DNA of 64,000 bases from Nymphaea colorata (taxonomy: Eukaryota; Streptophyta; Magnoliopsida; Nymphaeales; Nymphaeaceae): contig NC_045143.1 in the NCBI RefSeq assembly GCF_008831285.2, forward strand, positions 19,617,655 to 19,681,654, given 5' to 3'. Shown here one piece after another: positions 5,175 through 46,110 of this stretch. The translations under genes were made by a program, and so were the position numbers. Positions within the stretch are counted from its first letter, which is position 1; each line of letters opens with the position of its first letter. The notes beneath the pieces are model-generated. The model did not search any database. It was given only the letters and a program-made list of their open reading frames with translations, and was not told the DNA's origin.

Positions 5175-6148
5175 CACGTAACTTGAAGAAGCTCCACTAG
5201 AATTTCAACCAAAAAGCATGAGTGGTGCTTGTTTATGTTTTTTCTGTGTATTTAAGGAAGGAATTGAACAGCTTCATAAGAGGAAAATTAGTTCTCATCT
5301 TTAGTGGCACTCTAAAACAGTTAGCCCACTTCTACTAGAACACCTCAAATATATGAAAAACATAACAAAAATTGGATATTTATCATGTTTATTTACACAA
5401 GAAAAATTGTGAAAGGCCAAACTCACATGTTTAGCTTTGGAAGTTCCACGCTATTATAAGAGAACTTGAAGAGAACCTTGGCCAACCCATAAATAGCAAG
5501 CACTGAGCTCTTTTTGCTATTGACGCTCACAAAAGGACAATAACAAAGTTGACATTTATGAAGTTCTCGTATTCAAACATAATTCCAAGAATCACAACAC
5601 ATGATGCAGCCTCAAAAACTTTATAAATAACCAGAAAATACTCCCTCATTTTCAGTTTTCTGCTTAATCACATGCCGAAAGAACAATAATTGTTATAAGT
5701 GGAAGATAATGTTTTTAGGCAGTCTGTTCAACATAACTGAATGAATTATCAAAATCTGCAGCACCAAGAAAAAAGAAGAAAGAAATTCATTTGAAACAGA
5801 ATCCTTGATTATACTCCAAAGACAAGAAAGCTTGAAGAAGTAGAAGAGTACTGTTTTATAATATAACACCAAACGGACTCTGCATCCTGCAGGTAGAATC
5901 AATTGAACGAGAGAAAGAGAAATAGCTAATGGAAATGCGTCCTCCTCCTGTATTCTCCAGCTAAGGAAAAGCCAAAAAGAAAAGAAAATGTGGACATTAT
6001 GCAATTGGCACAAAGTAACTTACCTGCATGGCAAAGTTCCACGATCTCATTGCACCTTAGCATCCACCCCTTCCACCTTTTCTCAACGTGCATTAGAGAT
6101 GCAATATCATAGCTTGAAAAAAATCTTCAAATGAGAAGTCCTTCCAAC

Positions 6149-9100
6149 CTACAAGCATAAACAGGAAAAAGTTCAGAGTTAGTGAAGAGTACTTCTTGAT
6201 CAAACTAATGCACAAATAAACGAAACAAAGAACTTTTTTGCAGTTTTATGGCAATGAAAAAATCAAAAGAGAAAGAAGATAATGAAATAGGCAAGAACTG
6301 AGATGAAAGGGCAGAGAAAGGGAGGGTTTTCCCAGTTGTCGCACTTGATTACAAGTCTCCTCTCCACTAGCTAATGTCAGGTGCCGCTTCTCTGGCCGGT
6401 GCCATCACCGACTGACATTGCTTCTCAGCAACTCATGTTTATGGGCTAGGAATTTATATTGAGGATGGAGATAATGTCCAGCTAGTAGGAAAATAGCCTT
6501 GTTACAGCCACTGACTAGGGTCAAGGGAGGGCAGACAAAAAACTGAAAAATGAGAGGAGGTCAAAGAGGTGGAGGAGATTGAAATTTTAATAGAGGCAGA
6601 TCAAAAGTGAATGACTGACAAAGAGGCAAAAAGACACTTATGTGAATGGTGAGGGTTCTCCAAACCTATGGCCATGGTCAGTGTCATGGGGATCAGCCAT
6701 AGCCAAAAGCAAACTTTGTTGTCGTGTTTCCATCTTGCATTAAAGAGTTCAAACATGATAGAGCCTCCTTTAATTTATTATTCAACTTGTTCAGTTCTTC
6801 CATTAGAACTTTCATGTCACTTGCAGCATTCTCGACAATTTTCAAATATGAAATAAATGAAGGGGATTCAATGTAGGAAAACAAGCATGACAATGTAGAT
6901 GGAAAACACTGCAGATGCATGGATTGACAAAAGAATTTTAAATAAGAATCATGCTGCCATTTCATTTATTATCGTGATTAATTCCATCACTAAAAAGGCT
7001 ATTTTCACAGGTTTGATAATTAGGTTTGGGAGGCTATATTGATAAAGATCATGGAAACAATTAGGATAAGATAAGAAATTATAAACAAATTTTCCCTCAC
7101 TTCTTGTAGATTCTGACTAGCCCTCTACAAGTTGTGTGACTTGAAAGAAATCAAATTTGGTAACATCATATATAGAGAAAGAAATAATAGTGTAATGATG
7201 CATTGAAAGCATAAGCTTGAAAATGAAACCATACATGCCAAAATGACAAGATTTGATCATGGTAGTCATCAATTTGTCGTGAAGAATATCAAATTGGAGA
7301 TGACCCTGTGGATCTTCCAAAGACTTTTATGGCGTACTAAAAGTTCCTCTAAGTGAGAGTAGAGGAAATCACATGAGAAAATGTTATTCTCATAGAGCCT
7401 TAGGGCACACAACTCTATTTATTAACAGAACCATATTTATTGACTTATAAGATTCCAAATGAGGGGTTTGCCATCATAAACCAGATACGAATTCCTTTTT
7501 CTCTGTACACATATTAGATCCATACCAATTGAGATAATACAGACCCAGACATATTAAAACACTTTTGCATGGGGTATCCAAATAGATAGCGGTACACAAT
7601 ATATGATCATCAATATATATAGGCTTACACATATATTTCTACGTACATGTGTCCTTATGCTTAAGCCATCAAATAATGAACCAAAGATGGTTGGCCAGAA
7701 AGGTTTATTTCACTTTCAGCTGCCGCCAGATGAGAACAATGGAATGTCTTAGACTTCTTGCAAAGGTCAATCGAATATGTTTATGTCTTGGACTTCTTGT
7801 AAAGAACAGCTACACAGTGTGTCCCGTATATAACCTTCAGTAACAGCGCAAAATGTGTGAAGGAAGTAGTTCTGCAATCTATTTATTAGGATGTAAGTCA
7901 GTCTAATATATATTGATTTGTTCTGTATGACGACAAGGGCTCATACTGATGGCTACGGCCTGATTCCATACTTTTACATGTTTGGTTTAATAAGCTATTA
8001 ATGCTTTACCTAATATCAGATTGACTATCAAGCAAAAAAGAAAAATTTACACGCTATACATTTGTCTTTACAGTCAGCTATATGAAAGGTGCATTAGAAA
8101 GTAAACATTGGAGAGATCTTGACATCACAACGCAACTTTAAATTGGTACACTGCTGGGCCCGGAGAAATGGAAAACCTAATCTGAAGTTCTTTTAATTAG
8201 GGACAATGTTTTCATCTTAATTTGTTAAGTGAATCTCTAGGCGATCAAATTAATGAACAAATAAATTGCCTATGTACTTGTATGTTTGCATATGTCCTCA
8301 TGTCCACATTTTCAAAATAGTATGTTTGCATTTGTACTTGTACACATATTCTATATAGTTCTGTATGCTTTTAAGCACCTCTTGAACAATTGAATTAATA
8401 TTTATGCATCTACTGACATTTCCATGCAGATTAATAAATTTGATAATCTATTATCATTTGTTGAACACTTCTTTCAAATAGTATATATCTTTGTAAAAGA
8501 TTGCATGAGAGATCTTATACGAGTTTTAAACAAGGTAAATCACATTTTTAAAAGGACACTGTAGTTTATTTATATTTTTAATGATTAATGGTGTGCTCCT
8601 TAGGAGGAATAATATGATTGTATGTTATAAATAGGACATAAAATTATTATAATGAAAAAAGGATTAAGAATTTGTGAGAGACCTACTTGTTGCTATGTCA
8701 TTAGTGACAATTACCTGCTAAATGAGACACCATTGTTGACAAATTTTACTTAATTAGCATCTTTGAAAGTTAAAAGCTTAAAGTACCAATAATTTTCAGC
8801 TGCTAAAAAGTAGACAAAGATAGGCCGCAGTTCTTTTATCTTTTTGGATGGTTATGGTTGTCACATTTTTTGCTCCAATTAATCTTTTATCTGGAGCTTG
8901 GTCTGTCACAACAACTTTTTGTGATTACCAACTTGACCTTCATGATGAATTTCATAATCAGGACAGATAAAAATTTATGAAAAATGTGTTCAATTTTAGT
9001 CTTCAAATTTCTATTATTTTTTTCTTGAATGAAAGGAATTCTTATCATTTCATGTGTCCTTCCTAAATTTTTAGTTGAGTTCAAAGAAAGCTGCCATTAC

Positions 9101-10162
9101 CATTTAATTTCATCTTGTTAAGATTTTTAACTGGGCCCAAGTTGAATGGAAAAGGCAAACTGCTAGTTCTATGGTCGTGGCTAGTAGCCATTTGGAATTG
9201 TAAAAACAGATGTCTCACTTTTGGTGGTTAGTGAAAGTCGAGGTGCCCCCCGCTCTTTCCCCTCCTGCAGAATCCATGGCTGCTTCGGGGTCTGGGTGAT
9301 CCTACAGGAAACCATTCAACTCAAGTGTCACATATGCCACATGTTGCAGTGCAGAGGAGTAGCACCTATGAGAATTAAATCGATGACATGTTGTCAGCAT
9401 GACACTCAGTTTGACCAGCTATGTTATGCCCATTGAGGCACATATGTCTCATTTTCACAATTAAGTCAACATCATTGGCCATTTGGCCCCCAAATATATA
9501 GAAATTTCCCAAAGAAATCATCGGTTTTTTCTAAGTAACTAAACTTGAAATTTGGAACCTCACTATTTTGGTCTTACTTGACATCCTTAAATGTCACTAT
9601 TGAACCTTTCAAGGGTACTATTCTACATTTATACTAAATATATTGCCCCTCATTATAGAAGCTTTCAAGGGCAATACTGTACATTTACACTCAATATGTT
9701 GCCCAATGCATGATTTTGGACCTTTATAACAAGTGAGCAAAACAAGGACATGAGGGCAATATTGTCCAGGGTTCAATTTCTGAGGCGTATCACCAACCGT
9801 GGAAGGATGTTGGCATATTTCTGTTATGTTTCTGTCATTGATTTGCCTTTCAATTTTCTTCCTTTTCTTCCTCACGCCATTGATTACCTAAACATTTTCT
9901 TGCTGTTTCTGGAAAGGTACCTTCTCCAAATGAGCAAAGTGCTTCCTTTTCTTTTTTGGTAAAGTCCAGGCAAAGATTTCTTTTTCAAAAAAAAAAAAGA
10001 TATTTAATTTGTTAGCCCCTAGGAAGCTAGAAACAAGTAAAAAGCAATGTTTTTTTATTTATAATAAAATAAAATTATGTTAAGCACAGATAACATGCCA
10101 ATTGGAACAAGAACCTAATCTCCCTTTCATTTCTCTCGCCTTGTGGTCTGGTGTGGCTTCAG
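6149..10162. other. Intergenic, AT-rich, no gene identified
   Basis: About 4 kb without a supported gene. One minus-strand block near 6693-6850 encodes a Leu/Asn/Lys-rich coil (MEELNKLNNKLKEALSCLNS), but it has no recognisable family and no clear splice partners. A pair of 43-bp near-repeats sits at 9606-9648 and 9662-9704. Nothing else stands out. Confidence 0.5.
9606..9704. repeat. Two 43-bp near-identical direct repeats
   Basis: Units 9606-9648 and 9662-9704 both run from CTTTCAAGGG to TTGCCC, with a 13-bp spacer and a handful of substitutions. Confidence 0.8.
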
Positions 10163-10383
10163 GGTCTAGGTAGGGCTGCACAACGAGTCGAGCCAACTCG
10201 GGCTCGACTCGAACTCGGTCAAAAAAACTCGGCTCGAGCTCGACTCATCTCGCTCGAAAAAACTCGGCTCGAGCTCGACTCATTTATAAACGAGTCGAGT
10301 TCGAGCTGAAAGTTAAACTCGAAACAATAAACTCGAGTTCGAGTTGCAAGAACTCGACTCGTTTAAACTCGACTCGATTCGTT

Positions 10384-10787
10384 ATGAATAAACCGGTTCA
10401 CCGGTTTAGGGTAAAAACTTTTCCCTCTTCGGCGTCTTCACATTTTTACTCTTCTGTCTTTCCTTCGTTTTCTACTGCCTCTCTTTCTTCCCGTCTGCTC
10501 TCTCTCTCTTGCTGTCTTCCCTCTTCCGGCGACCACGACCTTCGGCCTTCCGTTCCATCTTTCAAACTGCGCTCTCTCTTCCCATCTGCTCTCTCTCTCT
10601 TCCCGTCTTCCCTCTTCTGTCAACCAGATGACAAGACTGCAACGCAAGCTGCCTTTACCAGGAAGCCAAAATCGGTTCGTGGTCTTCAGCCAGGTGTTCG
10701 GCGACATCGTTTGATCCTCTTCAACTTTCAGCTTCTCTCCGGCTAACTTTCTAGTCCAGCAAGCTCCATTCCTCTCGTGAACCAGGT
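10384..10787 (+). other. Leader-like CT-rich segment inside the hAT-like element
   Basis: A CT-rich, G-poor stretch with a 120-codon open frame. Downstream it ends at CGTGAACCAG, followed by a consensus-like splice donor GTACGT near 10786. It resembles a plant 5' UTR or first exon plus intron start, and may be the captured gene's own leader. I see no protein family in it. Confidence 0.4.
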
Positions 10788-11192
10788 ACGTTCTCTCCTC
10801 TGCCGTTTACCCTCTCTTTTCTTCCTAACCTTTCCCCCTACCCTTTCTCCAAGTTAATCTGTTCAGGTTTTGCTAATCAATAGTATTTTCCAGGCATACT
10901 CTCCTTTTCCCAGAGTTTCTTTTGGCAAGCAGTAGGAAAATGTCTAAACATCTCACCGGTTCTGGTTTTTCCTTTTTGTTTTTTGGCTGAGCTTTCTTGT
11001 TGTGCATTGCACATTCTTGCCTGTTGGGTTCGTTAATTTCTGGATTTCCTATTGCATGTATAGTAGTTCTTTAGATATTATTTCACATATTACATGATTA
11101 TCAACGAGTTGTAGTTGTCAATTAGTCACCAATCTGGTTTCGCTTCGATATGTGTTCTTCGTCTTAATCAAGAAATTTGTTTGCTCCATTAG

Positions 11193-12081
11193 ATGCATAC
11201 AAACCAGAGACGTGGATGCTTCCTCATAAAAAATGTGAGGGCTTGTCTCAGCTAAATCTTGCTATTGTAAGGTTTTCTCCAGTTCTGGTTGAGTGCAAAA
11301 AAGATACTTGCAAATTTTACTCGAACTATTGAAAGGTTGATCAGTTTGTATTTATTTACTTTCATTACCATGTGTAGGTTGGCCACGTTGATTCTGGCAA
11401 ATCAACGTTGACAGGAAGAGACTGCACATTTTGGGGTGGATCTCTCAGAAGGATATGCACAAGTATGAGAAGGAAGCCAAACAGCAGGTGTAATAATTTA
11501 TTAATATGTTTATATTTGCTTAATAAGTGCTATTGCACTTCAACCTAATCGCTTTTCTATTTAATTTTTACATTGAGTGCAGGGGAAAGGCTCATTTGCC
11601 TACGCATGGGCATTAGATGAAAGCGTTGAGGAAAGGGAAAGAGGAATAACTATGGCTGTTGCAGTTGCTCGTTTTGAATCAAGGAAATTTCATGTTGTTA
11701 TGCTTGATTCACCAGGGCATAAAGATTTTGTCGCAAATATGATATCTGGTGCTACACAAGCAGATGCTGATCATGCTGTGATACTTGTTGTCGATGCATC
11801 TATTGGTTCTTTGAGGCAGGTATGGGTTTAAATGGAGTTGGGGGATAGACAAAGGGGCATGCACAACTTATCCCAAGTTTTGGTGTTGAACAGCTGGTTG
11901 TTGCTGTTAATAAGATGGATTTTGTAGGATATTCTAAAGAAAGATTTGATTCCATCAATATGCAGCTGGGTGGATTTCTCGGATCTTGTGGATTTAAAGA
12001 ATCACATATTTCATGGGTACCTTTAAGTGTTATGGAGAATCAGAATCTTGTTGCAGTTATAACTGAACCTCTTTTCTCATG
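11193..12081 (+). pseudogene. HBS1: Captured HBS1-like translational GTPase fragment
   Basis: HBS1 is an eRF3/EF1A-family GTPase that acts with Pelota/Dom34 to rescue stalled ribosomes. Exon 11193-11266 encodes YKPETWMLPHKK to SQLNLAI. Exon 11378-11487 encodes G1 (VGHVDSGKST) and ends EKEAKQQ. Exon 11583-12081 encodes [21 protein letters not shown]3 (DSPGHKDF), G4 (NKMD) and VGYSKERFD. Introns sit between them with GT and AG borders, so capture was at the DNA level. Three lesions kill the frame: a one-base loss after STLTGR (about 11415), a one-base loss in the TTTGAGG stretch near 11811, and TAG at 11846-11848 where a Gln is expected before TKGHAQ. The N-terminal region and the beta-barrel domains are absent. 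It lies wholly inside the hAT-like element. Confidence 0.88.
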
Positions 12082-12534
12082 GTGTGTGTGGTATTTTTGT
12101 AGTCATGTTTCAAGTGTTATGCTGCTTCTTTTCATCAATTAGGTAAGGTTACAACAGTTACTCCAACTAAAATTGGAGGGACTCTGTTTTTAATATTATT
12201 TGGCATTCATATGATGGACTCTTTGCTGCATATCTCTGTAAAATAAGTTTTGTTTATGGTCTGAGTTACGTTCCATTTATACACCTAATTTTGCCACATT
12301 ATCTTCTCTTTCTAAGATTCTATGGTACACCTGATCTTTCTAACTTTTGCCTGCTTATCTTTCTGTAATTTTCAAATGTTAATTAATTTTATATTATTCT
12401 CTGCTTCCATCTACCTTGTTATGTTTTCGTTCTATGCTGCTTTTACCCCTTGTTCTCCTTGAGTGCTTTTTGCTTGAGCTGAGCTGAGTTTTTGCATGAT
12501 TTTCAAATGTTAACAGCATTCTTATATCTGCAGA

Positions 12535-12572
12535 TGATGACGATGATGTGCATTGATGATGATGAAGAAGAC
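12535..12572. repeat. Imperfect GAT/GAC repeat
   Basis: A short run of GATGATGAC-type triplets in the hAT-like element, just before the subterminal repeats. Confidence 0.7.
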
Positions 12573-12605
12573 GTGGTTCTCATTTAACTTCCATTAATTT
12601 CCATT

Positions 12606-12870
12606 AATTGATACAAGTTAGATGCCCAAACGAGTTAAAGGATTTAAATGCCTAAATGAGCTAAACAAGTAAATGCCTAAACAGCTAAACAATTTAACGG
12701 GTAAACGAGCTAGACGAGTTAGCGCCTAAACGAGCTAAACGATTTAGCGTCTAAACGAGCTAGACGAGTTAGTGCCTAAACGAGCTAAACGAGTTAAAGT
12801 TAAACGAGTAAATGCTAAACAAGTTAACGAGTTAAATGGGTTAATTGAGTTAAATGGGTTAATCGAGTCG
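12606..12870. repeat. Subterminal degenerate tandem repeats of the hAT-like element
   Basis: About ten variants of CTAAACGAGCTAAACGAGTT are laid head to tail, diverged by single-base changes and small gaps. They adjoin the right terminal GCTCGAG block. In hAT elements subterminal repeats bind the transposase; that role here is inferred. Confidence 0.7.
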
Positions 12871-13031
12871 AGCTCGAGCTCGACTTTGTGTAGTCGAGTC
12901 GAGCTCGAACTTGTTCTAAGAAGCTCATCTCGAACTCGAGTCGAGTTCAAGCTCGAGTAATTTTAACCAAGTCGAGCTCGAGCTGGCCAAGCTCGGGCTC
13001 GGCTCGGCTCGTGTGCAGCCCTAAGTCTGGG

Positions 13032-13640
13032 TGGAAGACAGTATACTTGTCAACTAAAGTATTGTGCTCGACACCATTTGCAAACTAAGAAGATAGTGCT
13101 TAGAGGAATCAAACTGAAAATGTGGAGTTTCACCAGCGTTAACCCGTACAGGAATGTCAGGCCCCTTGAGAGGAAGTGCATATAAAGCAAAACAAATTAA
13201 ATGATTTGTTTCTGCAAATATGGGCTCCGATATATTAATAAAAATATTTGAAATAAGTTGTATTATTAAGTTGTCTTGATTTTCTCAGCCATTGATAAAC
13301 TCACACGGTGATTGATAGCTATCAAAAATCTGCATGAGCTTTCTAGGAATTAAACAACATACGTGAGACTCTGGTACCAATAGCATTGGAATCGACATTG
13401 TCTTCAAATTAAATGAAAATTTTGTTCAACCAATTTAAGGCAAGGGGGAGAGAAAGAAAGAGAGACAAGGGTGCATAATAATAGCATTTTAATGTACTTT
13501 TATTATATAATATCTTTTCCTTTTTAGTATACTATGTGAAGGAAACACACTAGTGGCCCATGTAAGTTGTCGTTGGATGCCACTTGCAGATTTGGTGTGG
13601 CTTGTTTTGACGTCACGTTAGCTGCCATAATAGGTTTAAA
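13032..13640. other. Non-coding stretch between two elements
   Basis: I see no ORF, repeat or regulatory motif I can support. Confidence 0.5.
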
Positions 13641-13649
13641 GTTTGGATC

Positions 13650-15330
13650 ATAGAACCGATGTTCTGGTGGATGTCTCATGATTTTAAAGCATTTTTCTTT
13701 GACATGACCTATGCCACGACAACGTTGATCTTAAAGCATTTTTCTTTGACATGACCTATGCGACGACAATGACTGCATGTAGGTTTATATTACCAACTTC
13801 CTTGACCTTTCTGAAATCTGAAATTGGTAGTATCACGGTTGGCCGCCTTGTCATGGTTTCTTTGTGAGACTTTCCTTGTGAGACGGCTAATGGAGTAGTC
13901 CCTTCATTTGGTGTGCTGAAGATCCTAATTTATTACCAACTTTTTCGACCTTTCTGAAATCTGAAATTGGTAGTGTCACGGTTGGTCGCCTTGTCATGGT
14001 TTCCTTCTGAGACGGCTAATGGAGTAATCCCTTCATTTGGTGTGCTCAAGATCCTAATTTCCGGTTGTTTTTTCTTCTTGCAAAATTAACCCATAAATCT
14101 TCATCACTAATTTCCCGTTGTTTTTCTTCTTGCAAAATTAACCCATAAATCTTCATCACATTGGGTAAGGGGTCTAAAAGAAGAATTTTTCCTCTCATGA
14201 CATTATATGAGTCATTTAACCTCATCAAAAATTGAATGACTGTTTCCTTTGACTTTTTCCCTTTGAATATGGTCTGCATAGGCTCTCATTGCCCCCACAC
14301 GAGCATTCAGGAAGAGGAGAATATGAACCCAATTCGTCCCACAAAGTCTTTATTTTTGTGAAATATAAAGTACTATAAACGAGAGATGAAACTTTGGATT
14401 TGTTATATTGTAAACTAGAGATGAAACTTTGGATTTGAGGAGAATATGAACCCAATTCGTCCCACAAAGTCTTTATTTTTGTGAAACGAGAGATGAAACT
14501 TTGGATTTGTTATATTGTAAACGAGACTTTGGATTTGTTATTTATTTTTGTGAAACGAGAGATGAAACTTTGGAGATTTGTTATATTGTAAACGAGACTT
14601 TGGATTTGTTATATTGTAAACGAGAGATGAAACTTTGGATTTGATATATTCTTTCTCGCTGTAGTTGCATAAATAACGGTACTTGTAATATCTTTGCTAA
14701 TTGAATTCAAAATTCATGATAAAACAAGATGGTTATTCAAAATCCATGATAACATGGTTACATTGAACCCAATGTAACACAAGATGGTTACATTGAACCC
14801 AAGGAAGATAGAATGGGTCTGTTTTCATATGGGTTCAGTAATTAAACCATCTAACCATAGACATGGCCCTACTCCATTTTTGCTGAAATAGCCATAGACA
14901 TCCATTTTTGCTGAAATAGCCATAAACATGGTCCTACTCCATGTACCATAATTATCCTCAATGACCATAATTATCCTCAATGAGAGGTTGAGACACCAAC
15001 ATTAGGTTCCATAATTATCCTCAATGACCATAATTATCCTCAATGAGAGGTTGAGACACCAACATTAGGTTTATCTGAATGTAATAAGGATTAAGGTTTA
15101 TCTGAATGTAATAAGGATTGGACATCACTAAGGATTGGACATCACCTGGGCAGGATTAGACATCACCGAACGGCTCATTTTTACTCCTTCTGGTATGGAT
15201 ATGAAGGACTCATTTTTGCTCCTTCGTTGTTCATGCTTTAAAAAGCTCTGCTTCAAAGCTCTGTCGTCGTTGTTCATGCTTAAAAGCTCTAACCATATTA
15301 GAAGAGCATCACGAGGGAACAAGAGTGGCG
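13650..15330 (-). pseudogene. Ty1/copia gag relic with many internal duplications
   Basis: Reading the minus strand downwards, copia gag landmarks appear in the right order. NYGTWSRTM lies at about 14933-14955, a WVQCNH/WIL segment near 14730-14800, TKIKTLWDELGSYSPL near 14325-14360 (with a second copy near 14460), NDSYNVMRGKILLLDPLP at about 14170-14250, then LILQEEKQREI, and a CX2CX4HX4C zinc knuckle at 13736-13777 (C-S-H-C, then H and C). The frame is broken many times. Almost every break coincides with a direct duplication of 15-140 bp, for example 13791-13930 with 13934-14060. No pol, LTR or PBS is visible nearby, so this is an isolated gag fragment. Confidence 0.8.
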
Positions 15331-16038
15331 ATGAAAAAGAATACTTGAAGTTTTTTATTTGTTAATTAATTTGAACGAGCTTAAAAATATATATATAATT
15401 AACGTCTACAACGTTAACGTCTACAAGCTTTCTTTCTTTCCATTATCAAATGAAGGAAGCTTTCTTTCCATATGATAATGAAGAGATAATGAAGGATTGA
15501 CGGAGGTGAAGGAGATAATGTCATGAACTTATAATGTTCAGCTCTTGGCAAAGCACGAACTGACGTTTTCTCCTTTTGCCGATACGTTGGGGAGGAGAAC
15601 AGCCGGAACACGGTATCGGCCTGCCCCCACGACGCTCAGCGGCGCCCGGAAACGACGATTTCCGCAACGATCCCCCAAGAAATCATGACCCTTCAAGCCG
15701 ATTAAAACTACAGCATTTGCACATACAATCGCCATATACGAAGATAACTCGCATTCCATTATTTTTTCAGCAAGCAAGCAACTACACAGAGGATCGACCA
15801 AGAAAAGCAAGCCAAATCCATCGTCAGATTCACATTCATCTGGTCTACATCCCCATTGAACAGACAGAAATAAAAGGAAAAAACACCAACTTCAGCATTG
15901 TCATCAGCAATATAACACAAAGCATGTCAACACAACGTTCGACGCCTACAGAAACATCTGAAGAGACACGCCTAATTATTCACGACGACCAGCTAGATAC
16001 GAAGTTGAGCATGGAAGGTGGTGCCCCCTCATCTGTGC
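15331..16038. other. 3' flank of the LEA gene, non-coding
   Basis: The sequence holds probable 3' UTR and spacer of the minus-strand LEA gene. A 203-codon plus-strand frame (15576-16187) overlaps the LEA gene antisense and has no family features. Confidence 0.5.
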
Positions 16039-16553
16039 TCAACTATAAGAACCCCCCGTCCCGTACCCGGTACGCGCAGGGCCATGAGCAGCAGGAGCGG
16101 TGCCGGTACCCGTCGTCAGTCCCGCGGACTCCGTTGCCATCGATGCCCCCGTTGCCGCCCCGTGATGCTGGCCGGGCACCGCGCTAAGCCCCGTCGGGTG
16201 GCCCACCACACCCGTGCCGGTCCTCGCGCGGCTGGCCTCCTTCTCTGCCGCGTGCTGCGCCTCGGCGTCCTGCTTCTCCATCTCCGCCCTGCTTATCCTC
16301 TCCTCCTTCTTCTCCGTCGCCATCTCCTTCTTCAACGGATCACTAGTCGTCATCCTCTCCGCCTAATCACCCAAGGACAGCCATGATCACAATCATTAAC
16401 GAAGTATAAAAGCACATTAAGGAAGAGAAAAGAAGAAGGGGTTACTTTCTCTTGGATGGTGGCCTTGGTTTTGTCCATCCCAGACTTGGCCGACGCCGCG
16501 GTGTCTTTCATGGTTTCCTTGGCGGAAGCCGCCGCACTCTTCCCTGTCTGCAT
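16039..16553 (-). CDS. LEA protein, group 4 / LEA_1 family
   Basis: The protein is a late embryogenesis abundant type that is disordered when hydrated and protects cells during desiccation, usually in seeds or dry tissue. Exon 1 (16446-16553) encodes 36 residues starting MQTGKSAAASAKETMKDTAA and ending ATIQEK. An 83-bp GT-AG intron (16363-16445) follows. Exon 2 (16039-16362) continues AERMTTSDPLKKEMATEKKE and ends GYGTGGSYS before TGA. The total is 143 residues, normal for the family. The N-terminal half is an Ala/Lys/Glu/Thr amphipathic helix. The C-terminal half is Gly/Thr/His/Pro-rich and unstructured. The exon junction falls between codons and restores the conserved QEK-x-E/K-x-MT block. 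I chose the first Met because family members begin MQ and no upstream frame adds conserved sequence. No lesion is seen. Confidence 0.93.
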
Positions 16554-16689
16554 GGCTTCTCCTGTCGCCGGCCGGAACGAGAGACGAACCAACCACAACA
16601 CTGATCGAACAGATGAAAATACTTGACAAACCGCGCTAGAGTTGTACCCTGCAGTGATTGGAATGAGAGAGCCGTGAAAATTACATACA

Positions 16690-16850
16690 TATATATAGAA
16701 TATCATTACATTGGTAATGAGAGGTCGTGAAGACACGTAGCAGAGTACGTGGTGAAAGTTGCCGCAGCATGCTGCTTCCTTTAACGTGTTGTGTGCTGAG
16801 TGAATCTGAACGACAGGGCAGAGAAAGAGGAGCGATTGAAGATGACACGT
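16690..16850 (-). promoter_or_regulatory. LEA promoter with ABRE-like sites
   Basis: On the minus strand a TATATAT box lies at 16690-16697, about 140 bp upstream of the LEA start. Further up are two ACGTGTC cores (16732-16738 and 16844-16850) and a CCACGT core (16747-16752). ACGT-core elements of this kind are bound by bZIP factors in abscisic-acid-responsive seed promoters, so ABA control is a reasonable inference. Confidence 0.65.
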
Positions 16851-16859
16851 TGATCGATC

Positions 16860-18925
16860 AGGTTTGGCTGGCAACTCCACAGAGGGGAAAATCATGGCGG
16901 CCCTTCTCTCCACACCTGCCGTTGCTCCTACCTCGTTCCCTCTCTCTGCTTTTCCATTCGCGGCTCTTCACAATTTGCACTGTTCTACTGTATTATGTAC
17001 TGGCAGGGGTGAACAAATTAAGCACTGTTTGCTTTGCTTTTGCAGAAATCTTGACTAAACCTGAGTAACCTCAACTCAACATATCTGACTAACCAATCAA
17101 GCTGAACTAGAAAAGCTCGAGCTGACATTTTCTGCATGTGAAATCGAGCATTTGAAGGATAAGAGACTAAACTTGCTCAATTCCAGATAACTTTCTTAAA
17201 ATGTCAAACTTTAAGTTTTGAAACTATGAGTCGAAAATATTCATTATATTTTAATTTTAAGAATTCATATTTAAAGGGTGGGAGGTTTTGACTTCATATT
17301 CATGAAATAAAAATATATGGAAGAATGACAGTCATCTTCCAAGCAAGAAATCTTAGCTTTGATAAAATCAGGTATCTACAATCATAGAATCTTAAATTTC
17401 ATTCTCATATAGAGGCATTCATATGCCTTCAAAAAACACGGAAAACAAGTTCAATTTTCAATTTTTTTTTTTTCATTTGGCTGCTTGAATTGAGAAATAC
17501 ATACTACTAAATGGGCATACACGTGCATGGGTAAACGTTTCTGTACGTTTGGGAAAAAAACAACTGCAAGAAGTTGAGTGTCCTAGGAATCCTTGCTCTT
17601 CCTGTGTGGTGTAAGCACCCCAAACTTGTACAAATTTTCTAAATTTATTTCAAAATCATTTTCTAGACCTGTCCCAGATTTTCAAAGCATTTTGAATGAA
17701 TTGGCTTCGCTATATCCCATTTTGCTGGATAGTGGGAGTCCAAACTCCGGATCCAAACGTGAGGATTAAACCTAAATCTTAGGCAAATCTAGGGACTAAG
17801 TTTAAATTTGAGAACTAAAACTAGGACTTAAACACAAATATCAATTTCAATTTTAGATCCAAATCTTGGGTCATTTTATAGGTTTAAAATTGAAACTAAA
17901 TTGAAACCAACGCTTGAAATATAGATCCAAAATATAGGTCCAAATAGGGAAAACTAGATCCAATCCAAGAACTAACGTGTATGTCTAAATTACTGGATCC
18001 ATGGATAAAGCCGAGATCCAGAATAGCAATTTTTGGATCATTTCCAAGATCCAAAATCAAAATGGATCCATGTTCCCGAACATCAAATCAATTTTAAATT
18101 GTTTTCTTAATATTTATTTACAATCCAAAAATTGAATTCTCTAGATCCAAATACAAGACGTTATTCATGCTTGAATCTGGGACCCAAAATATCAAATTCT
18201 ATGTGGAAGTTACTTTGGATTCGAAATCCAAAATGGAAATTCAAATCTAGAATCAAGACATATTTGGAATCCAAAAACTAAAACTGGAACAGAAAGTCAA
18301 TCTTGTTTTTTTAAATGTAGAACTCAAAAACTAAAATTTTGGATGAAAAGAATTTGAGGTCTCACTCTTAGAATCTGAATAGGATTTTTCGAATTAGAAT
18401 ACTACAATATATAATGGGCAACCAAGCCAATAAATGGTTGGCGGTCCGTTCTAGCTGACCCAGCAGATTGACCCAACCAACCTGCCCCAAACGGGGGCTA
18501 CAGCACGGTGTGGTCTCAATGACCAGGCATGTATAATTCTAATAACAGTCCATTCGTTGGGTTAGCATGCCAAGATTGGCATAGGCCAAGACATTTTTAT
18601 AGGGGAATCAAGATAATTCATCAAGATTTCAAAAGATTCACTGTTTGAATTGATCAACGAACATATGCAACAATGGCGTTATCCATGATCAATTTTTGTT
18701 TCCCAAGTATTATAATCACAACAATATCTCTCAACTAATTGGCTCAGCACCAATAATATATCTCCTGGAATTTTCATCCAATTAGAGAGAAGAATTTGCC
18801 AAGATATTCCAAGCCTCCTACTGGCTGGATCATTGGTCCATGGATAAGATGGACAGACAATCTCTTGCATGGGGTGCCATTTTGCTTGTGGGAAGTCTCT
18901 CACCACATATGGTGAGAGAACTCTA
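16860..18925. other. Intergenic; includes an ATCCAAA-rich stretch
   Basis: No gene is seen. From about 17750 to 18300 the words ATCCAAA, AGATCC and CCAAAAT recur at irregular spacing and in diverged form, as if an old simple or minisatellite repeat has decayed. No ORF of note is present. Confidence 0.45.
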
Positions 18926-18933: not shown

Positions 18934-19363
18934 TATGGCAGCACACGAGCCTAGTCAAGCTTGGGTTCGAGCTCAACTCAATTTAGAAAGTTTAAGCTCA
19001 AACTTGACTCGAATTCGAGTCAAGCTCAATAGAATAGGTTCGAGCTCGACTCAACAATACAACATCAAAATTGAGCTTGACTTGTTTCATTCGTGTTAAG
19101 CATGTCTCATTTGTTGTAACTCGTTTAGTTGCTATTGATTTAACTATTCACTCATTATAATTTAACATTGATTATATAGTCCAGTTGAGTTGAGTTGGGT
19201 TTAAACGAGTCAAGTTCTTACAACTCGAGCTCAATACATTTAATATTTCAAACATAAATTTGAACTCGAGCTGACTTGTTTATAAATGAGTCGAGCTCAA
19301 GTTGAGTTTGGATGAGCGAGTTTCAGTTGAGCTCGAGCTAACTCAATTCGTTGTGCAGCCCTA
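18934..19363. mobile_element. hAT-like MITE, copy 1
   Basis: A 430-bp element with ends TATGGCAGCACACGAGCC and TTGTGCAGCCCTA, matching the ends of 10171-13023. Octamers TAAATCCC (18926-18933) and TAAATCCT (19364-19371) flank it, a target duplication with one mismatch. The interior is two arms of GAGCTC/CTCGAG words in opposite orientation around an AT-rich centre and has no coding capacity. Confidence 0.82.
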
Positions 19364-19775: not shown

Positions 19776-20226
19776 TAAGGCTAGACAATGAGTCGAACCA
19801 GATCATGCTCGCCTGGAATTCGCTCATCAAATTTCGACTTGAACTTGACTTGTTTACAAACAAGTCGAGCTCCAGTTTAAATGTATGCTCGAAATGTTAA
19901 TCGAGTCAAGTGTAAATTTGAGTTGTAAGAACTCGATTAGTTTTCGGTTCGGCTCCACTACATAATGAATGCTAAAATATAATGAGAGAATAGTTAAAGA
20001 ATAGCAACTAAATAAGTTCATCTAGTTAAACGAGTTAAAAGAAACAAGATATGTTTAACATAAATGAGTTAAATGAGTCGAATTCGAGCTTGACATTATA
20101 TTATTGAATCGAGCTCAAGCTTGTTCTATTGAAACCAACTCGAGTTTTATTACGAGCAAGTTTTTTGAGTCAAGTCAAGCTCGAGCTGGCCCCACTTGAG
20201 TTCAACTCGGCTGGTGTACAGTGCTA
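19776..20226. mobile_element. hAT-like MITE, copy 2
   Basis: A 451-bp element with ends TAAGGCTAGACAATGAGTCG and GTGTACAGTGCTA, a diverged version of the same terminal repeat. Flanks are TCCAACCC (19768-19775) and TCCAACGA (20227-20234), 6 of 8 matching. It is more diverged from the family consensus than copy 1. Confidence 0.72.
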
Positions 20227-21809: not shown

Positions 21810-22691
21810 GGTACCCTGCTCGCCCTTTCCATTTCCTGCTTTGCGAGTTGGGGCTCCACGCGAGTCCACCTCGGGATGCCCCGACCCGATGCTGGTTGCT
21901 GCTCAGTCTCACCTTGGCGACGTCTGGTCGTCCGCACCGTCTCTTTCGGCTGCCCGCCCGTCGGCAGGGGGTCGCACCCTTGAGGCTGCTGTTGTTGCTT
22001 GCTCTCGTCCGACTGCGGCCTGCGTTGTCTTGGCATCTGGCGTCTCGGCACCCCCAGTCAGGCGTTCTCCCTCTGTTGCCTGTACGTTGCTTTTACCTTG
22101 GTTACTGGCCCCCCTATGCCCCCCTTACACCCAGGACCTCCTCCTTTACCTATCTGCCTTGGGTTTTTTCTGTTTCTTTTGACAGTAGCTTTAGCTCTCA
22201 CTGGTCTTCCCTGCATATTCTACTCCCTAGACTCAGTCGCGGCTCACCTCAAAACCTCGCCTACCTGCCTCTCCCACCGGTTAGCCCTGCCCTCCCCCGC
22301 ATCCCTTATGTTGGCTCTTTTTCCCCTACCCTGCGGTCTGAGTTTGCGTTCACCTCTGCCCCCTCGTCCTCCCCTGTTCAGTTGTCTGGCCCCACCACGA
22401 GTCCTGTGGGTCGTCACTCCCAGCCCGATAGGTTGCCACCTGTTGCCCCTTGTTGGATATTGAGTTGGGCATTTCCCTCCCGGATGCGCTTGACGCTCTT
22501 AAGGTCTCTCTTGCGCCGGAGCAACTTGATTTGTTGCGCTCCTCTTTTGTTGCCACTATGGCACCGGCCTCCTGCTCCAGCCTGGCCAGGTTGCGGCGGG
22601 AGTTGCGTAGGATTGGGGCTTCCGCAGCCTCCATCCTCCCCCCTGGTGCCGCCAGGGCGGCCAGACGTTCGTCGCTTCACGTGGTTTCCCC

Positions 22692-25600
22692 ATGAGGGTT
22701 GCATGTTGGAATGTGCGGGGCCTCAGTGCCCGTTATCGGCGTAGGTATCTCTCTTCTTGGATCCGTCAGCATGGACATTCGGTGCTTATCGTGGTTGAGA
22801 CCAAGATGTCTGTCATCTCTCATGCTTGTGTTCGTACTTTGTTGCGTCAACCGTCCTTTGGGTTCCTTCCAGTTTGTGGAGCAGCTGGCGGCATCCTGCT
22901 GGCTTGGTCTCCACCCCTTACGGGGGTTGTTGTGCATGTCGGTAGGTACTCTATCTCTGCTTCTCTCAGCGGATTCTGGCCTAATGGTCCGGTCTTGGTT
23001 ACTGCGGTTTATGGCCCTTGCGTTGGGGTTTTGCGTGGGCAGCTGTGGGCTGAGCTGCAGCAGGTTCGCCAGCTTGCAGCTTCCCCAGCTTGCAGCTTCC
23101 CCTTGGCTTCTGGCAGGAGACTTCAACTGTTTGCTTAGCCCTGCTGACTCATCCTCCCCTGTCACTTCTGGTCCGTCTATGTCTGCTTTTCGATCGTTCG
23201 TTGATGAGTTCGGTCTTTTTGACGTGTCTTCGACTAACGGTACGTTTACTTGGTCTAATAATAGGAACCCTTCGATCCTTCGTAGGTTGGACCGTATCTT
23301 CCTCTCGCTTGAGTTGTTCTCTGTTTTTCCTTCATCCTCTTTGGTTCTTAGTCCGAGGCACCTGTCTGATCACGCTCCGCTGTCCTTTCCCTTCTTCGAG
23401 GTAGGGCTGGTATCGGGCACGCCAAGTTTCATTTTGAACTTTGGTGGCTTCGTGATTAATCCTTTGTAGCTACCATCCCTAATTGGTGGGCTCGTGCAGT
23501 CAATGGTAGGTGGGCTGCTTTCAGGCTCTCACGGAAGTTGCACTCCATCAGGAGGGAGGCGCTCGCCTGAAAGCGCATTTTCTGGAGCAGCAAATTTTTG
23601 GAAGTGGCCGATTGGGATGACTTGTCCCTCCAGGCCTCTGATAATGTTTCTGCGGATCAGTCTTCTCGTCTCCTTTGTCTGCAGTGTCTTGCCCAGGAGT
23701 GGCGGATTAGGGAGTCTATCCACTGGCAGCAACGCTCTAGGCTGGGTTGGCTCGCGCATGGGGACCAAAACTCTAGATTCTTCCACTTGGCCGTCTCTTA
23801 GAGGCGCCGTCAGACGTTGCTCCAGTCCATGGGTATCGGGGGTAGGGTTTTTCTTGGCGATGACATCCTCCCGGCCCTGAGCGCTCATTTTTAGGATTTC
23901 TACTCTAAACCTCTTCGCTTTCGTGCCACGCTGCCGGATTTTCACCTCTCCTCTCTCTTTGTCTCTTGTGCGATTGCTCTTGAGCGGCCCTTCCAACACC
24001 AAGAGATCAAGAACGCGGTTTGGGCCCTTGGCTCTGGTAAGGCACCCAGCATTGATGGTTTCCCTGTCGAATTTTTTCGTACTTTTTGGGAGGTTTGTAG
24101 CGCGGATGTGTTTGTGTTTTGTGATGAGTTTGCCTCCAATTCTGTTTTCTTGAAGGAATTCAATCAAGCTACCTGGGTCCTGGTGCTTAAGCGCCCTAAC
24201 CCTACGGACGTCACCCACTTTCGCCCGATCTCCATCCTAGGCACACCTTTCAAGATTATTGCTAAGTTGCTCTCTTTGCGACTTGCGCCTGTCATGTCTT
24301 CAATCATTAATCCCTTCCAGGTTGCTTTCGTCAAGGGTCGGCGTCTGCAGGATGCGGTTGTCCTAGCCAATGAGGTTGTTCACTCCCTTTACTGTCTACG
24401 GCTACCTTCATTCATCATTAAGTTGGACATCTCTAAAGCTTTTGACTCGGTTAGTTGGGAGTTCATTTCTGACCTCCTCACCCGTCTTGCGTTTGGTCCT
24501 TCGTTTAGACAATGGATCATGTCGCTTGTCACTGGGGCCCAGCTTGCGGTCTCCTTCAATGGGAAGTGTGGCGATTTCTTCTGTCTCGAGCGTAGCTTCC
24601 GTCAAGGTTGCCCGTTATCGCCCTTGCTTTTCAACTTGGTTGCTGAGAGCTTTTCTGCGTTTTTCCATCACGCAACGGTCGTTGGCTTCCTCACACCTCA
24701 TTCGCTCTCCCACTTACCGTCCTTCTCCACCATTCAGTATGCTGATGATTTTCTCCTGTTAGGCAGTGCTTCCCGCCAGCAGATTGTGAGAACGTGGCTC
24801 ATCCTTCGGGTCTTTGAGCTCTTCTCGGGTCTTTCTATCAATTCTGCCAAGTGTCACCTTTCCCTCATTCACGCGGATCCGGGCACGGTACTTCTCGTGG
24901 AAGCTTGCTTTGGGTGTAAGGCTACTAGCCTGCCCATGGACTATTTGAGGCTTCAGATTACGTTGTCGCCTCCTGCTCCTTCTTTTTGGGATGGGGTGAA
25001 GCAGAAGCTTACTGATCGCCTTTAGTGTTGGCAGGAAAAGCTGCTTTCTCTCCCAGGTCGGATTACTCTGGCTAAGCACTGCCTTGCGTCGGTCTTTCTC
25101 CATGCTTTGTCTGTCTTTCGGCCTCCTGTGGCGGTTTTGCGTAGGTTTGATAAGTTTATTCGTAAGTTTGTTTGGGATGGTGATCGACCTTCAGATCGCC
25201 TTGCGCATTGGGATGTGGTTGTCTTTTCGCGTCTTCTTGGGGGTGTTGGGGTTACCAACCTTAGTCGGGCTTGCGAGTCTTCCCTGTGTTCTTCGTGGTG
25301 GCGGTTAGCAACTGAACATTCTCCCATCACTCAATTCATTAGTTCAAAATTCGACCTGCCTTCCCTTAGCGTATGGCATAGTTCTATCTCTCACACCTCC
25401 TCCTCTCACTTTTGGTCTGACATGCTTTCTGTCATTCTTTTTTTCCTCCGCCTTGCTGACCTCTCATCGTCCACATCCCCATCTTGGCCCCTTTCACCTA
25501 CCCGTGAGTTCACTTTTTCTTCTTGCTACATGGCCTCCTTTGGTCCTTCTGTCGCGTCACTCCCCCCCTCCCCCCCCCCCCCCCGGGTCTCTTTGGTCTC

Positions 25601-26014
25601 TTGGCTCATCTCCTCGTGCCATTGCTTTTGTTTGGCTACTTTTGACTGGCCATATCAACACTTTTGATCACTAACAGCGCTTTGGCATCAGTTTGGCTAA
25701 CCAGTGTCCCCTATGTCTTGTTGCGACTGAGTCTCGGGTCCACCTTTTTACTTCTGGTCTTTTTTTCTCTAGTGTCATTGCTTGTACTTGGCCTTCCCTT
25801 GTTAGTAATCTTCCTAACCCACCATCCATTCGCTTCCTGGGGTCATGTCTGGAGGCCGTGGCTCATTTCAGCTTGGTGGCGCATTTGGGTGGAGCGCAAC
25901 AACAGGGTCTTCAGGGGCACCTTCTCTTCGCTAGATTCTGTGGCTCGTTTTGTGCAAAGGGATGTCCAATTTGCCATTCGGTTAAAGCGCCGCCACCTGT
26001 CTGCGGTTGGGTGA
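22692..26014 (+). pseudogene. LINE ORF2: APE endonuclease plus reverse transcriptase, broken
   Basis: Endonuclease: WNVRG at the start (ATG 22692), ETKM, YGP, GDFN, GTFTW, RLDR and SDHAP appear in order. The frame jumps at 23071-23102, where a 16-bp unit is doubled, and again near 23400 (one base lost). Stops follow at RD*SF (about 23458), ALA*KR, VS*RRR and HF*DF. Reverse transcriptase: 24108-25025 encodes FRPISI, KLDISKAFDSV, QGCPLSPLLF and YADD (24738-24749), ending in TAG at 25023-25025. The frame resumes as CWQEKLLSLPGR and KFIRKFVWDG. The C-terminus has a zinc-binding-type CPLC...HLF segment and AWWRIWVERNN in two other frames, after a poly-C tract at 25561-25584. ORF2 would nick target DNA and copy the LINE RNA in place. 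This copy cannot. Confidence 0.88.
23071..23102. repeat. 16-bp perfect tandem duplication in ORF2
   Basis: AGCTTGCAGCTTCCCC occurs at 23071-23086 and 23087-23102. Removing one copy restores the endonuclease frame across LAASP and WLLAGDFN. Confidence 0.95.
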
Positions 26015-30889: not shown

Positions 30890-32290
30890 ATTGAACCCAG
30901 AGTCTAAAAATTAAGGGTGTGAAAAAGAAAGAGAGCAATCAAAGATTAATGTGGTTCGGTGTGAACTCACACCTACATCCACTAGAAAATTAACTATCGA
31001 TAGACCTTGCCTTCCTCAACATTTATACTTTTTGTTGCAACTATCACCATTATTTTCACCTCAATAATATTGGATTTACAACCATTATTTCCATGTTTAT
31101 CCTTTTGATTTATAGTTGTGCCCATACATTCCTTATATTTTCTATCAACAGATTTGGAATGTGATATGTTAGCTGTAACCGACGGATTCTCATCCTAATT
31201 TGTAGCTCCTCCTCTGCTGCTTTGGGTATCAGCCCCCCTTAAACTGGGCGGTAGCATGGAAATCCCGAGTTTGCTCCTTAGATGTTCAAAGGTGGTGAGA
31301 AGGCCAATGGCGAATTTTTTTTCTAAGAAAATGATAATCTAACTCCACATGCTTTATCTTTAAATGAACAACCCTTCCATTCCTGGAGAGCAGACATGCT
31401 ATCACAGTATAAAAATAGGTAGATCAGCTAAGTAAAGTTCAACATGTTTGAGAACATAAGAGATCTATGTAAGTTCAGCGACAGTAGATGCCATGAATTG
31501 ATACTCAGCCTCTATAGTTGACACCATGCTACAGTGGGTTGCTCCTTAGCAGTCCAATAAATACACTTAGAACCCAGATAAGTGGCAAAACCAATAGTTG
31601 AATGCCTGGTATTCTTGGCAACCAACCCAATTTGAGTCAAGTTCAATAGAGCCATGAACATGTTATAAGAGCCTTTTTGTAAGCTGAAAACAACTTGTCA
31701 TTGGGGACTACATATATTGGATAAGAAAATTAACTGAGAAGGAGATGTCTGGTCTTGTAAATGTCCAATATTGTAACCCTTGGATCAAGCATCAGTACAC
31801 CGTGGGATCTGCAAATGGAGCATCGTCTACTGGCGCTTTGTAATTTTGTACCAATGGTGTAATAATTGGTTTGCAAGAGAACATGTTTGCTTTCTCTAGC
31901 AAGATATACCCATATTGGCATTTGATTGAGAAAGAGCCCTCCATGCTTTTTAACAACCTCGACACCAAAAAAGTGATAAAGATAGCCCAAATCTTTCATT
32001 GAAAATTCTTTGCTCAAGTCACAAACAAATTCTTGTAATAAAATTAAACTATTGTTTGTCAGAATAATGTCATCGACATATAGGAGCAATAAGATAGTGC
32101 CTTCAGCATCATTGCAAATAAATAATGATGAATCAAAGACGTTTGAAAAGAAGCCTTTTGAAAGTAAATAAGTACGAAAACGATCATACCGTGCTTGCTG
32201 AACTTAGGAAAGCCTATAGAGTGCTTGATGAAGCTTACAAACATGATTATTGGCCACGGTAGGAGCCTCATTCAAAAGTACTACTTGTTG
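30890..32290 (-). mobile_element. 3' portion of a Ty1/copia element
   Basis: On the minus strand the order is reverse transcriptase with YVDD (32069-32080) and KEFSMKDLGYLYHFFG, RNase H with GFATYLGSKCIYWTAK and EAEYQFMASTVAEL, then HLRSKLGISMLPPSLRGA. A polypurine tract AAGGGGGGC (31232-31240) follows, and then TGATACCC, the likely start of the 3' LTR at 31231. The LTR interior keeps a U5-like GTGGATGTAGG ... GAACCACATTAATC block near 30950-30990. The outer LTR end and target duplication were not found, so 30890 is approximate. Gag, integrase and the 5' part of the reverse transcriptase are missing. Several stops and frameshifts break the pol frame. Confidence 0.8.
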
Positions 32291-38447: not shown

Positions 38448-38489
38448 ATGAACGGAAGCGAGGGACGGCCCACGCTTGCTACCGCCTGA
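38448..38489 (+). other. Upstream ORF in the AHL leader (13 codons)
   Basis: ATG at 38448 opens MNGSEGRPTLATA and stops at TGA 38487-38489, only 7 bases before the main AHL ATG. If the leader is spliced as the sequence suggests, ribosomes would meet this uORF just before the main start, which could lower translation. Confidence 0.5.
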
Positions 38490-38496
38490 GCAGGGG

Positions 38497-41400
38497 ATGA
38501 TGGCGGGGAGGGAAACGTCGTTCAGCGCGGCCCTTCAGAAGGGCAGCGGCGGTGGCGGCCCGGTCTCAGCGCAACCGGGCGCGCCGGTGCAGAACATGCG
38601 CCTATCGTTCAGCTCCGACGGCACGGCAATCTACACGCCGGTGAGCGCCTCGTCTCCGCCCTACCAGGCGGAAGGCTCTGCTGCCATGATGCAGCAGCAG
38701 CAGCAGAAACCGCAACAGCAGCAGCAGCAACCGCAACAGCAGCAGCAGCAACCGCAACAGCAGCAGCAGCAGGGATTGGGAGCAAGCATAGGGGGCGGGC
38801 CGCCGGTGAAGAGGAAGAGAGGACGACCCAGGAAGTACGGACCCGACGGGAGCATGGCGCTCGCACTCACTCCGGTCTCAGCCTCTGCGCCGCCAGCGGC
38901 GTACGCCCCCTCCGCCACCCCGACGTCTCCCTCCGTGAAGAAGGCAAGGGGCCGCCCGCCTGGTTCGGGCAAGAAGCAGCAGTTGGCAGCTCTCGGTCCG
39001 TACTCCTCTCTCTTTTGACTGGTTGACTGACCGCATACTGTGTGTGTGTGTCAGTGTGTTGTGTGTATTCGCATGCATGTATTTATATATACGTGCATGT
39101 GTGGGTCTGCACTCTGCAGACTGCAGGCATCAGGTAAGTGGTTACATGGTGTTGTTTTTTTATATTAGCGTCCCCCATGGTAGGGCTGCAGGGAAATATC
39201 TTCTGTGCATCTTGCTCTAGTTTGTTTCCGCCTGCAACTTGCCTAATAATTCATTTGAATCTATTCTCTACCGCGGACATTACTTACGGAGAGCTCGTGA
39301 TGATGATGGTGATGATTGATCTCCTGCCCTACCTTCTTTTGCTTTGTTTGCGTCCCTTTTCTTAAAAAAATGGATTCGTTTCGTTTCAGTTTGTTCTTTT
39401 TCTTTTTCTTTGGGAAATTCTTATTTGCCTTTAAGATTGCTTCATTTGGTCTAATGTTTAATTCTCGACGGAAAATTTCTACCCAAGCAAAACCTTCCAG
39501 TTCATTTGTCTCTATCTTCCTATGCCTTGAGAGATTCTTGACTTGGTCTGGTCTGAAGAAGTCATTCGAGAATTTCTTCCAAGTAATAAAGTAATACCTC
39601 AGTTTATTGCTTGTGTTTCTATTCGTCTCTATTTTGACGTTAGCCGTCTTTGTAACATAAATTGTATATGTAGTTATCCCTTTCACTGTTTTTTCCATCA
39701 TGGTTTGTATTTACCATTGTAAGTAACTGCTGAGTGTTTCTACACGAAACCTGAGGCACAGTTCAAATAACAAATTTCATTTCTACAATGTTGTAGTAAA
39801 AAATGAGATACAGTACCCAGTGATGCAGGGGAAAGATCAGTGCTTTTGCTTCGTTTCTTATGTGTCTACCCAGGAGATTGGTAACAGTTTTGGAAGCATT
39901 AGGTGGCATGTGGCGACCTACTCCTGTGAAGCCTGACATATTGTTTTAACCTCATTTTTATTGATTCTTTTGGACAAGTACCGTTGCTGTGTGGTTCTTA
40001 AATGAAGTTTTCTTTGTGAATGACAGGATCTCCTGGGGTTGGTTTTGTGCCCCACATAATTGCAGTTAAAGCTGGAGAGGTTTGTGCATCTTGTAGCTTT
40101 TGTCTCAAGCAAAAAAGTACCAAAAAAGACTGTTCTCTTTGTCCTTTCGCCGCAAATTTGATAAGGCTGTCTTTATTCTTTTGTAATCTTATGCTTGCAT
40201 CATAATATGAAAGCAGCAATCAAACGTTTGTTGTTACCTTTTATGGTTGAGCTAGGTGTTCATTTAAATCCATGTAATTTATTTATATTTACGCCAGGCA
40301 TGCATTTGTGCGTTACAAAGGATGTTTCAATCTTAATGAGATTGACTTCCATTATTAATTAGCAGCTGAAGTTTCGTTGTGAGCATGCCCATGTGTAATT
40401 TTGCTCTATTTTGTTCGCAATGCTTGATGCTTTAGAACATCTTGTCCAACAGTGCAGGGTTGTAGAGTTTATGAGAAGTCAATTGAATTGTATCCCAGTT
40501 TCCTTTATTCCTCTTTACTGTCTGATTCTTGACAAATACAGTTCTGGATGCCATGGTTCTACCAACATATTTTATTTACTTTGCATACGAATTGGTTCGG
40601 GAGTTGGAATGATCATAATCTGCAACCACAGTGAATTTGTAAATTTTGCTCTTGGGACAGACAAAGATACATGAATTTACCTATATAACTGATCATTTAA
40701 AACTATTGCAATAGGTTCATTTCACATGATTGAGAACATGATTAAATTAACATATCCCTTTAGAAAATCGTCTTTTTTCTCTTTTGTTATTTTACATTTT
40801 TCCAAAAATCGTTCACATTTTCCTGAAATTGTCTATGATGTGTACAGAATCTTATAGTTTATGAATCTGAAATGTACATATATTCATGTTTCTGCGAGTT
40901 TTTGGTGTGGGGGGGTGGGGGGGGTGGAGGGAGCAGAGCTGCTTTACGTTCACACATCTTTGTATGTACCATTATCATAAACATTCTGATATTATCACCA
41001 AAAATAGATGTCACAGAATTTTCTCCTTAAAAAAGTCTTTCTATATGTATTTTATTGTATGTTTTCTGATCTTCTTTTAAGTTTTAATAATTATGCTTAT
41101 GATTTCATAAATTTTCTATTATTTCTTATATTTTCATTTTTTTAATTTCAGAAAATTTCTGCAGTAAAACAATTGCAAAAATTATGAGAAAAGCACACAA
41201 ATAGATACCCGAGAAAGATGTTTGTGAAATGGTATGCACATATGAGAGTGCTTGTCTGCGTGTTCATGTGTAGGTCTACAAAAGTTACCCAGAAAATCAG
41301 AGGATTCTGGAAAAGATGTACAAGAACAAATATAAACCGTAAAAGACTATATAAGAAAAAAATAAAATTATTTGGAACATGTCCTTTTAAATCATGTTTA

Positions 41401-46010: not shown

Positions 46011-46016
46011 AATAAA
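46011..46016 (+). terminator. Polyadenylation signal of AHL
   Basis: AATAAA 233 bp after the AHL stop, in an AT-rich 3' UTR. Confidence 0.55.

Positions 46017-46107: not shown

Positions 46108-46110
<3 letters not shown>

Follow-up and report, generated by a model that had tools for sequence, protein, structure and literature searches.

A non-autonomous hAT-type element with an HBS1 gene fragment in Nymphaea colorata

The stretch bounded by 10171 and 13023 in a 64,000-nucleotide segment of the Nymphaea colorata genome (hereafter the window) is almost certainly a hAT-type, non-autonomous element that contains a fragment of a host gene, that is, a Pack-hAT with a piece of HBS1, a gene of ribosome rescue. 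We favor, with a probability of roughly 70%, an explanation in which this Pack-hAT is of the Ds2 kind and is mobilized in trans by the transposase of full-length relatives, and in which the HBS1 piece was captured by gap repair and is carried as a passenger. A preliminary description of the window had proposed that a non-autonomous hAT-like element picked up a genomic HBS1 segment. This proposal is now supported by further copies, by a donor locus with mapped breakpoints and by a transposase-bearing relative.

The element and its HBS1 segment

The features of the element are collected in Table 1. The exact 11-bp TIR pair and the imperfect 8-bp target duplication (TSD) of the preliminary description both hold; the perfect TIR match is limited to these 11 bp, with drift beyond. 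In 200 first-order Markov simulations of the window, no exact TIR pair with a spacing of 150-8000 bp arose, and in the element itself no TIR match with two mismatches or fewer was found between 10182 and 13012. The left arm is common, near its outer end, to 23/23 HBS1-free family loci and the sharing reaches up to ~10640 in about nine of them. Blast coverage of the element by these loci is zero from ~10670 to ~12620. In six frames (stops written as X), no transposase domain was detected in the element, the only matches being GTP_EFTU and a DUF6056 match below cut-off. Therefore, the element would have to be moved in trans.

Table 1 Features of the element and of two related MITEs in the window
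Feature	Position	Strand	Description
Left TSD copy	10163-10170	.	GGTCTAGG; 6/8 identical to right copy
Non-autonomous hAT element	10171-13023		2,853 bp; bounded by exact 11-bp TIRs
Left TIR	10171-10181	+	TAGGGCTGCAC; exact reverse complement of right TIR
Left arm, hAT family	10171-10640	+	subterminal repeats, then CT-rich stretch
C6-like segment	10660-11183	+	82% to C6:4637222-4637804 (no family arms); also related to L054 and L055
Captured HBS1 segment	11185-12466	+	two complete exons and two complete introns between a truncated exon and a truncated intron; 90% to C10:2157914-2159232 (1330 alignment columns)
HBS1 exon, 3' part only	11185-11266	+	left edge is capture breakpoint, not splice site; donor exon extends upstream
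HBS1 exon with P-loop (GHVDSGKST)	11378-11487	+	frameshifted
HBS1 exon 3, rest of G domain	11583-12081	+	frameshift and TAG at 11846 in window copy
Junction filler	12467-12506	+	~40 bp between HBS1 intron and RWD exon
RWD-domain gene intron-exon junction	12507-12580	+	short internal repeat
Right arm, hAT family	12596-13023	+	25-bp tandem units; 84-93% to relative L055
Right TIR	13013-13023	-	exact reverse complement of TAGGGCTGCAC
Right TSD copy	13024-13031	.	AGTCTGGG; 6/8 identical to GGTCTAGG
MITE, same family	18934-19363	-	430 bp; flanks TAAATCCC/TAAATCCT 7/8 alike; arms match element
MITE, same family	19776-20226	+	451 bp; flanks TCCAACCC/TCCAACGA 6/8 alike, by eye; arms match element

Inside the TIRs, three HBS1 exons are found in order and with their introns, as first described; what had been overlooked is that the first exon is cut by a breakpoint and that at least two other foreign pieces, also present in HBS1-free relatives, accompany them. 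The exon limits in the element were set by eye. An intron acceptor before the first exon was considered and dropped, since the donor exon extends upstream there. In the window copy, frameshifts affect exons 2 and 3, and the TAG interrupts exon 3. When the two pieces of exon 3 were compared with solved structures, HBS1L came out on top for each (E 2.8e-22 and 4.1e-14). With the first piece, eEF1A is a close second (81.4 vs 76.4 bits) and ranks above yeast and S. pombe Hbs1; with the second, the top five matches are all HBS1. PF00009 scores above cut-off on the first piece and, at 24.3 vs 26.5 bits, slightly under it on the second. A scan with NCBIfam, whose models are prokaryotic, put EF-1 alpha at the top, far under cut-off.

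The HBS1 homology ends at 11185 and 12466 and does not extend beyond 10171 or 13023; on the + strand, no GTP_EFTU match at E <= 0.1 was found in 6001-10170 or 13024-17501. The two ends of the element belong to a single family as its left and right arms, not to two independent MITEs. A collinear HBS1 locus merely flanked by MITEs is thus rejected by the additional copies and by homology that ends inside the TIRs. A processed, mRNA-derived copy was also dropped, because two introns and part of a third are kept at the donor positions. The retained introns, together with breakpoints inside an exon and an intron, indicate capture from DNA.

Elsewhere in the window, several frames resemble other elements by eye: long frames at ~22600-25700 (+) resemble a LINE (endonuclease, reverse transcriptase), and frames at 31730-32203 (-) and 60878-62090 (+) resemble Ty1-copia polyprotein fragments. 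In addition, an open frame at 38452-39018 contains an AT-hook-like motif, KRKRGRPRKY; by resemblance, it is perhaps the first exon of an AT-hook gene.

Donor, copies and relatives

The assembly to which the window belongs (407.8 Mb, 783 contigs) was searched with 11190-12085 as query. Six places were recovered (6/6 candidates scored), namely five places of the element and C10:2157919-2158806, at 94%. The C10 locus has further HBS1-like sequence on either side of the captured stretch. GTP_EFTU and an eEF1A C-terminal-like domain both exceed cut-off there, and a RanBP-type zinc ribbon scores under it. This donor locus is taken as the HBS1 gene, the name being given from similarity. Aligning the insert with this parental locus, as had been suggested, places the left breakpoint within a donor exon and the right one within a donor intron. 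K2P distances between donor and element copies are 0.058-0.062 overall, 0.032-0.040 in exons and 0.084-0.092 in introns (exon limits a few bases off those of Table 1), and those between element copies are 0.021-0.026 overall. As the introns diverge more between donor and element than the copies do among themselves, the capture is old, with some intermediate steps lost.

Copies that share both ends and the HBS1 insert, which the preliminary description proposed to look for, exist at four more places in the 408 Mb, on C312, C4, C11 and C2. The C312 (L009) and C4 (L010) copies are 100% identical over 2788 aligned bases and have the same TSD, CTTTGTTG. They are probably one locus assembled twice, C312 apparently repeating a part of C4. 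Hence, four distinct HBS1-bearing loci are counted, the window included. They are 96.8-97.3% identical with gaps left out; with gaps counted, blast identity to the window copy is 91.1-93.4%. The TSD is perfect (8 bp) at two of the four, the C2 copy being flanked by AGTGGTTG. The C11 copy sits in a microsatellite and has no recognizable TSD. One TIR carries one mismatch in the C4/C312 and C2 copies.

Three changes from the donor recur in every copy: insertions have lengthened exon 2 by 2 nt and exon 3 by 9 nt, and 43 nt of intron are deleted. The copies therefore descend from one captured form, which was already damaged when compared with the present-day donor. When the four distinct copies are compared over exon 3, 22 departures from the majority are counted, of which 18 are nonsynonymous and 4 synonymous; one tied column enters this count for two copies, and one single-copy column, also present in the donor, was kept. 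Such differences are as expected without constraint and look neutral. Judged by its sequence, the HBS1 piece is a passenger and not a working gene.

Another object of the proposed searches, a hAT that shares these TIRs and has an open transposase frame, was found at C8:5785879-5792523 (from L030 and L041). It measures 6,645 bp, has exact TIRs with CATTCAGC on either side, and contains a 759-codon open frame with matches to PF14372 (hAT-like_RNase-H, E 1.8e-30) and PF05699 (Dimer_Tnp_hAT, E 5.1e-30). It is likely the autonomous partner, as a candidate recognized by its domains and ends. The window element matches it over 1-78 at 96% and 63-212 at 91% on the left, and over 2690-2841 (152 bp) at 91% on the right. 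A second long relative, on C4, measures 6,954 bp, with CCCTTAAC on either side and a transposase in two frames. In addition, a 3,582-bp family element (L017), flanked by TATCTTGG, retains a remnant transposase C-terminus at 1794-2408 (PF05699, E 2.6e-29).

From the places listed, 8 and then 20 further family loci were examined; as 40 of the 1434 first-look candidates were scored, the size of the family is a lower bound. The TSD is perfect at 9 of the 23 HBS1-free family loci, and also at L020 and L030 when longer sequence is used. Another member, of 3,709 bp with GAGATAGG on either side (L013, 438-4146; C10:4578937-4582645), has in its interior a Chromo-domain match (25.8 bits, cut-off 25.1), possibly a further gene capture. 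In the window itself, the two MITEs of 430-450 bp reported with the same ends are indeed present (430 bp and 451 bp); the TIRs of the longer one are too degenerate for the TIR scan, which missed it. A left-arm end of the same family lies at 49216-49366 on the - strand, and a convincing partner end for it was not found. A weak pair at 42516-49366 was dropped as an element, with four mismatches in one TIR and two in the flanks.

Foreign pieces and capture of the HBS1 segment

By similarity, the element is composite, with a C6-like segment and an RWD junction fragment besides HBS1. A search with the left foreign segment gave ten matches: the five element places, C6:4637222, two on C12 (L054, L055) and two on C14. 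The C6 locus (L053, C6:4637222-4637804), which has no family arms, gave no Pfam match at E 0.01 in the three + frames; it is a possible third donor. On the right, 12507-12546 is 92.5% identical to C6:6272222-6272261, and the rest of the RWD piece was assigned by eye and by a 24-bp match. The C6 gene at this junction scores 24.3 bits for the RWD domain, where the cut-off is 22.8.

The two C12 relatives are informative. L055 (C12:2275486-2278979) is 3,494 bp long, TIR-bounded and flanked by GTCGACTC, and L054 (C12:12968513-12972818) is 4,306 bp long, TIR-bounded with one TIR mismatch and flanked by GTCATCTT. Both contain the C6-like segment and the RWD-gene pieces (87-93%), and neither matches the HBS1 donor above 55 bits. 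A further relative on C15 (L047), in which the right end is degenerate, combines RWD pieces with the right arm; its similarity to the element is confined to the portion right of HBS1. Where the window element changes over to HBS1, the left segment simply goes on in L054 and at the C6 locus. Most likely, then, HBS1 took the place of the interior in an element that already had earlier captures.

In the scenario that we propose, two foreign segments were in place beforehand in an ancestral element: a piece resembling C6:4637222 and another derived from an RWD-domain gene. A break or gap then arose within this ancestor, and the DNA synthesis that repaired it would have switched template to the HBS1 locus, copied ~1.3 kb of genomic HBS1 DNA and switched back near the RWD exon, so that the interior was replaced and filler left behind. 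Afterwards, the new element would have drifted and come to occupy four loci or more, with full-length relatives supplying the transposase in trans. The gap-repair step with template switching, deduced from the junctions, seems fairly probable. By eye, both templates read TCC at the left junction, where the element has one additional base. To the right, the filler closes with 15 bp that repeat the captured intron exactly (12499-12513 and 12368-12382). Both junctions fit an interrupted gap repair. On the other hand, two-base differences between donor and element at this repeat mean that the copying used an allele different from the present donor, or took place later. The imperfect TSD of the window (6/8), the C11 copy without a recognized TSD and the lost intermediate steps speak against the explanation as a whole.

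The same arrangement might have arisen by fusion, with two neighboring family elements flanking the HBS1 piece and transposing by their outer ends, the inner ends being lost later. Such cases are described from maize and rice (PMC8903248), and the neighborhood is rich in family members, two MITEs lying within 10 kb. However, the scan returned no inner TIR pair and the interior has no TIR match with two mismatches or fewer, so that the inner ends must have been lost; the donor locus has no family ends at the breakpoints; and HBS1 sits between pieces that are continuous in HBS1-free relatives, L054 partly showing the lost interior sequence still contiguous. Fusion is thus unlikely. The filler and the very short shared junction bases would also fit an independent insertion of HBS1 into an existing element, for example a free DNA fragment end-joined at a break. 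A simple insertion would nevertheless retain the older interior, whereas here the sequence that should lie between the C6-like piece and the RWD exon is gone, which makes this origin still less likely than fusion; end-joining following a deletion is conceivable.

What the captured exons have done since bears on the passenger part of our explanation. In one copy (L012), exon 3 is open over a 186-codon frame, and divergence from the donor is lower in exons than in introns, which could mean temporary constraint on the element. That the captured G domain serves, or once served after its capture, as a gene under selection or as a dominant-negative HBS1 fragment is nevertheless very improbable: all copies have the exon 2 and exon 3 insertions, nonsynonymous differences predominate among them, and constraint on the donor alone can explain the lower exon divergence. 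As the latter suffices, we do not claim selection on the captured exons before amplification.

Relation to known gene-carrying elements

Pack-MULEs and gene-carrying Helitrons capture gene fragments with introns, sometimes from several genes. Pack-MULEs have long TIRs and a duplication of ~9 bp, and Helitrons are not known to have TIRs or a target duplication. The present element differs from the former by its 11-bp perfect TIRs and 8-bp TSDs, and from the latter by having TIRs and TSDs at all. The 8-bp TSD, the 11-bp TIRs and the hAT transposase in relatives with the same ends place it in the hAT superfamily (Ac-like).

Within this superfamily, the closest likeness is to maize Ds2. Ac/Ds elements have 11-bp TIRs, and Ds2-22 carries two exons and an intron of an ILR1-like gene (PMC3260210). 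As in the Ds2 elements described there, arms common with an autonomous element, 11-bp TIRs and an 8-bp TSD surround an interior replaced by a host gene fragment with an intron, whose donor lies on another chromosome. Ds2-like elements have ~200 bp of each end in common with the autonomous element and unrelated filler inside; the same arrangement is seen here, the comparison being with the C8 candidate. The differences from the Ds2 account of PMC3260210 are the plant, the hAT lineage, the layered captures and the presence of the HBS1 form at four loci. Pack-hATs, catalogued in maize, are likewise non-autonomous in maize and rice, with a captured coding fragment between TIRs (PMC8903248). Fusion of neighboring insertions is favored there for Pack-TYPE elements, whereas the junctions described here fit gap repair better.

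In the open-licence literature, no HBS1 capture was found named in titles or abstract openings. HBS1 and Pelota drive no-go decay, and a review proposes a role for this decay in plant transposon control (PMC12535099). It is conceivable, as a highly speculative hypothesis, that the HBS1 piece helps its carrier, if small RNAs or truncated transcripts made from the multiplied fragments were to reduce HBS1 dosage, and with it a surveillance step relevant to transposons.

Gene-carrying hATs are already known; what is added here is a preserved series of donor, autonomous candidate, HBS1-free relatives with captures of their own and multiplied HBS1 form. Because the switch points can be read to a few bases, gap repair and fusion can be weighed against each other. 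Overall, a gene-capturing hAT family with a known donor is added for an early-branching flowering plant, Nymphaea colorata.
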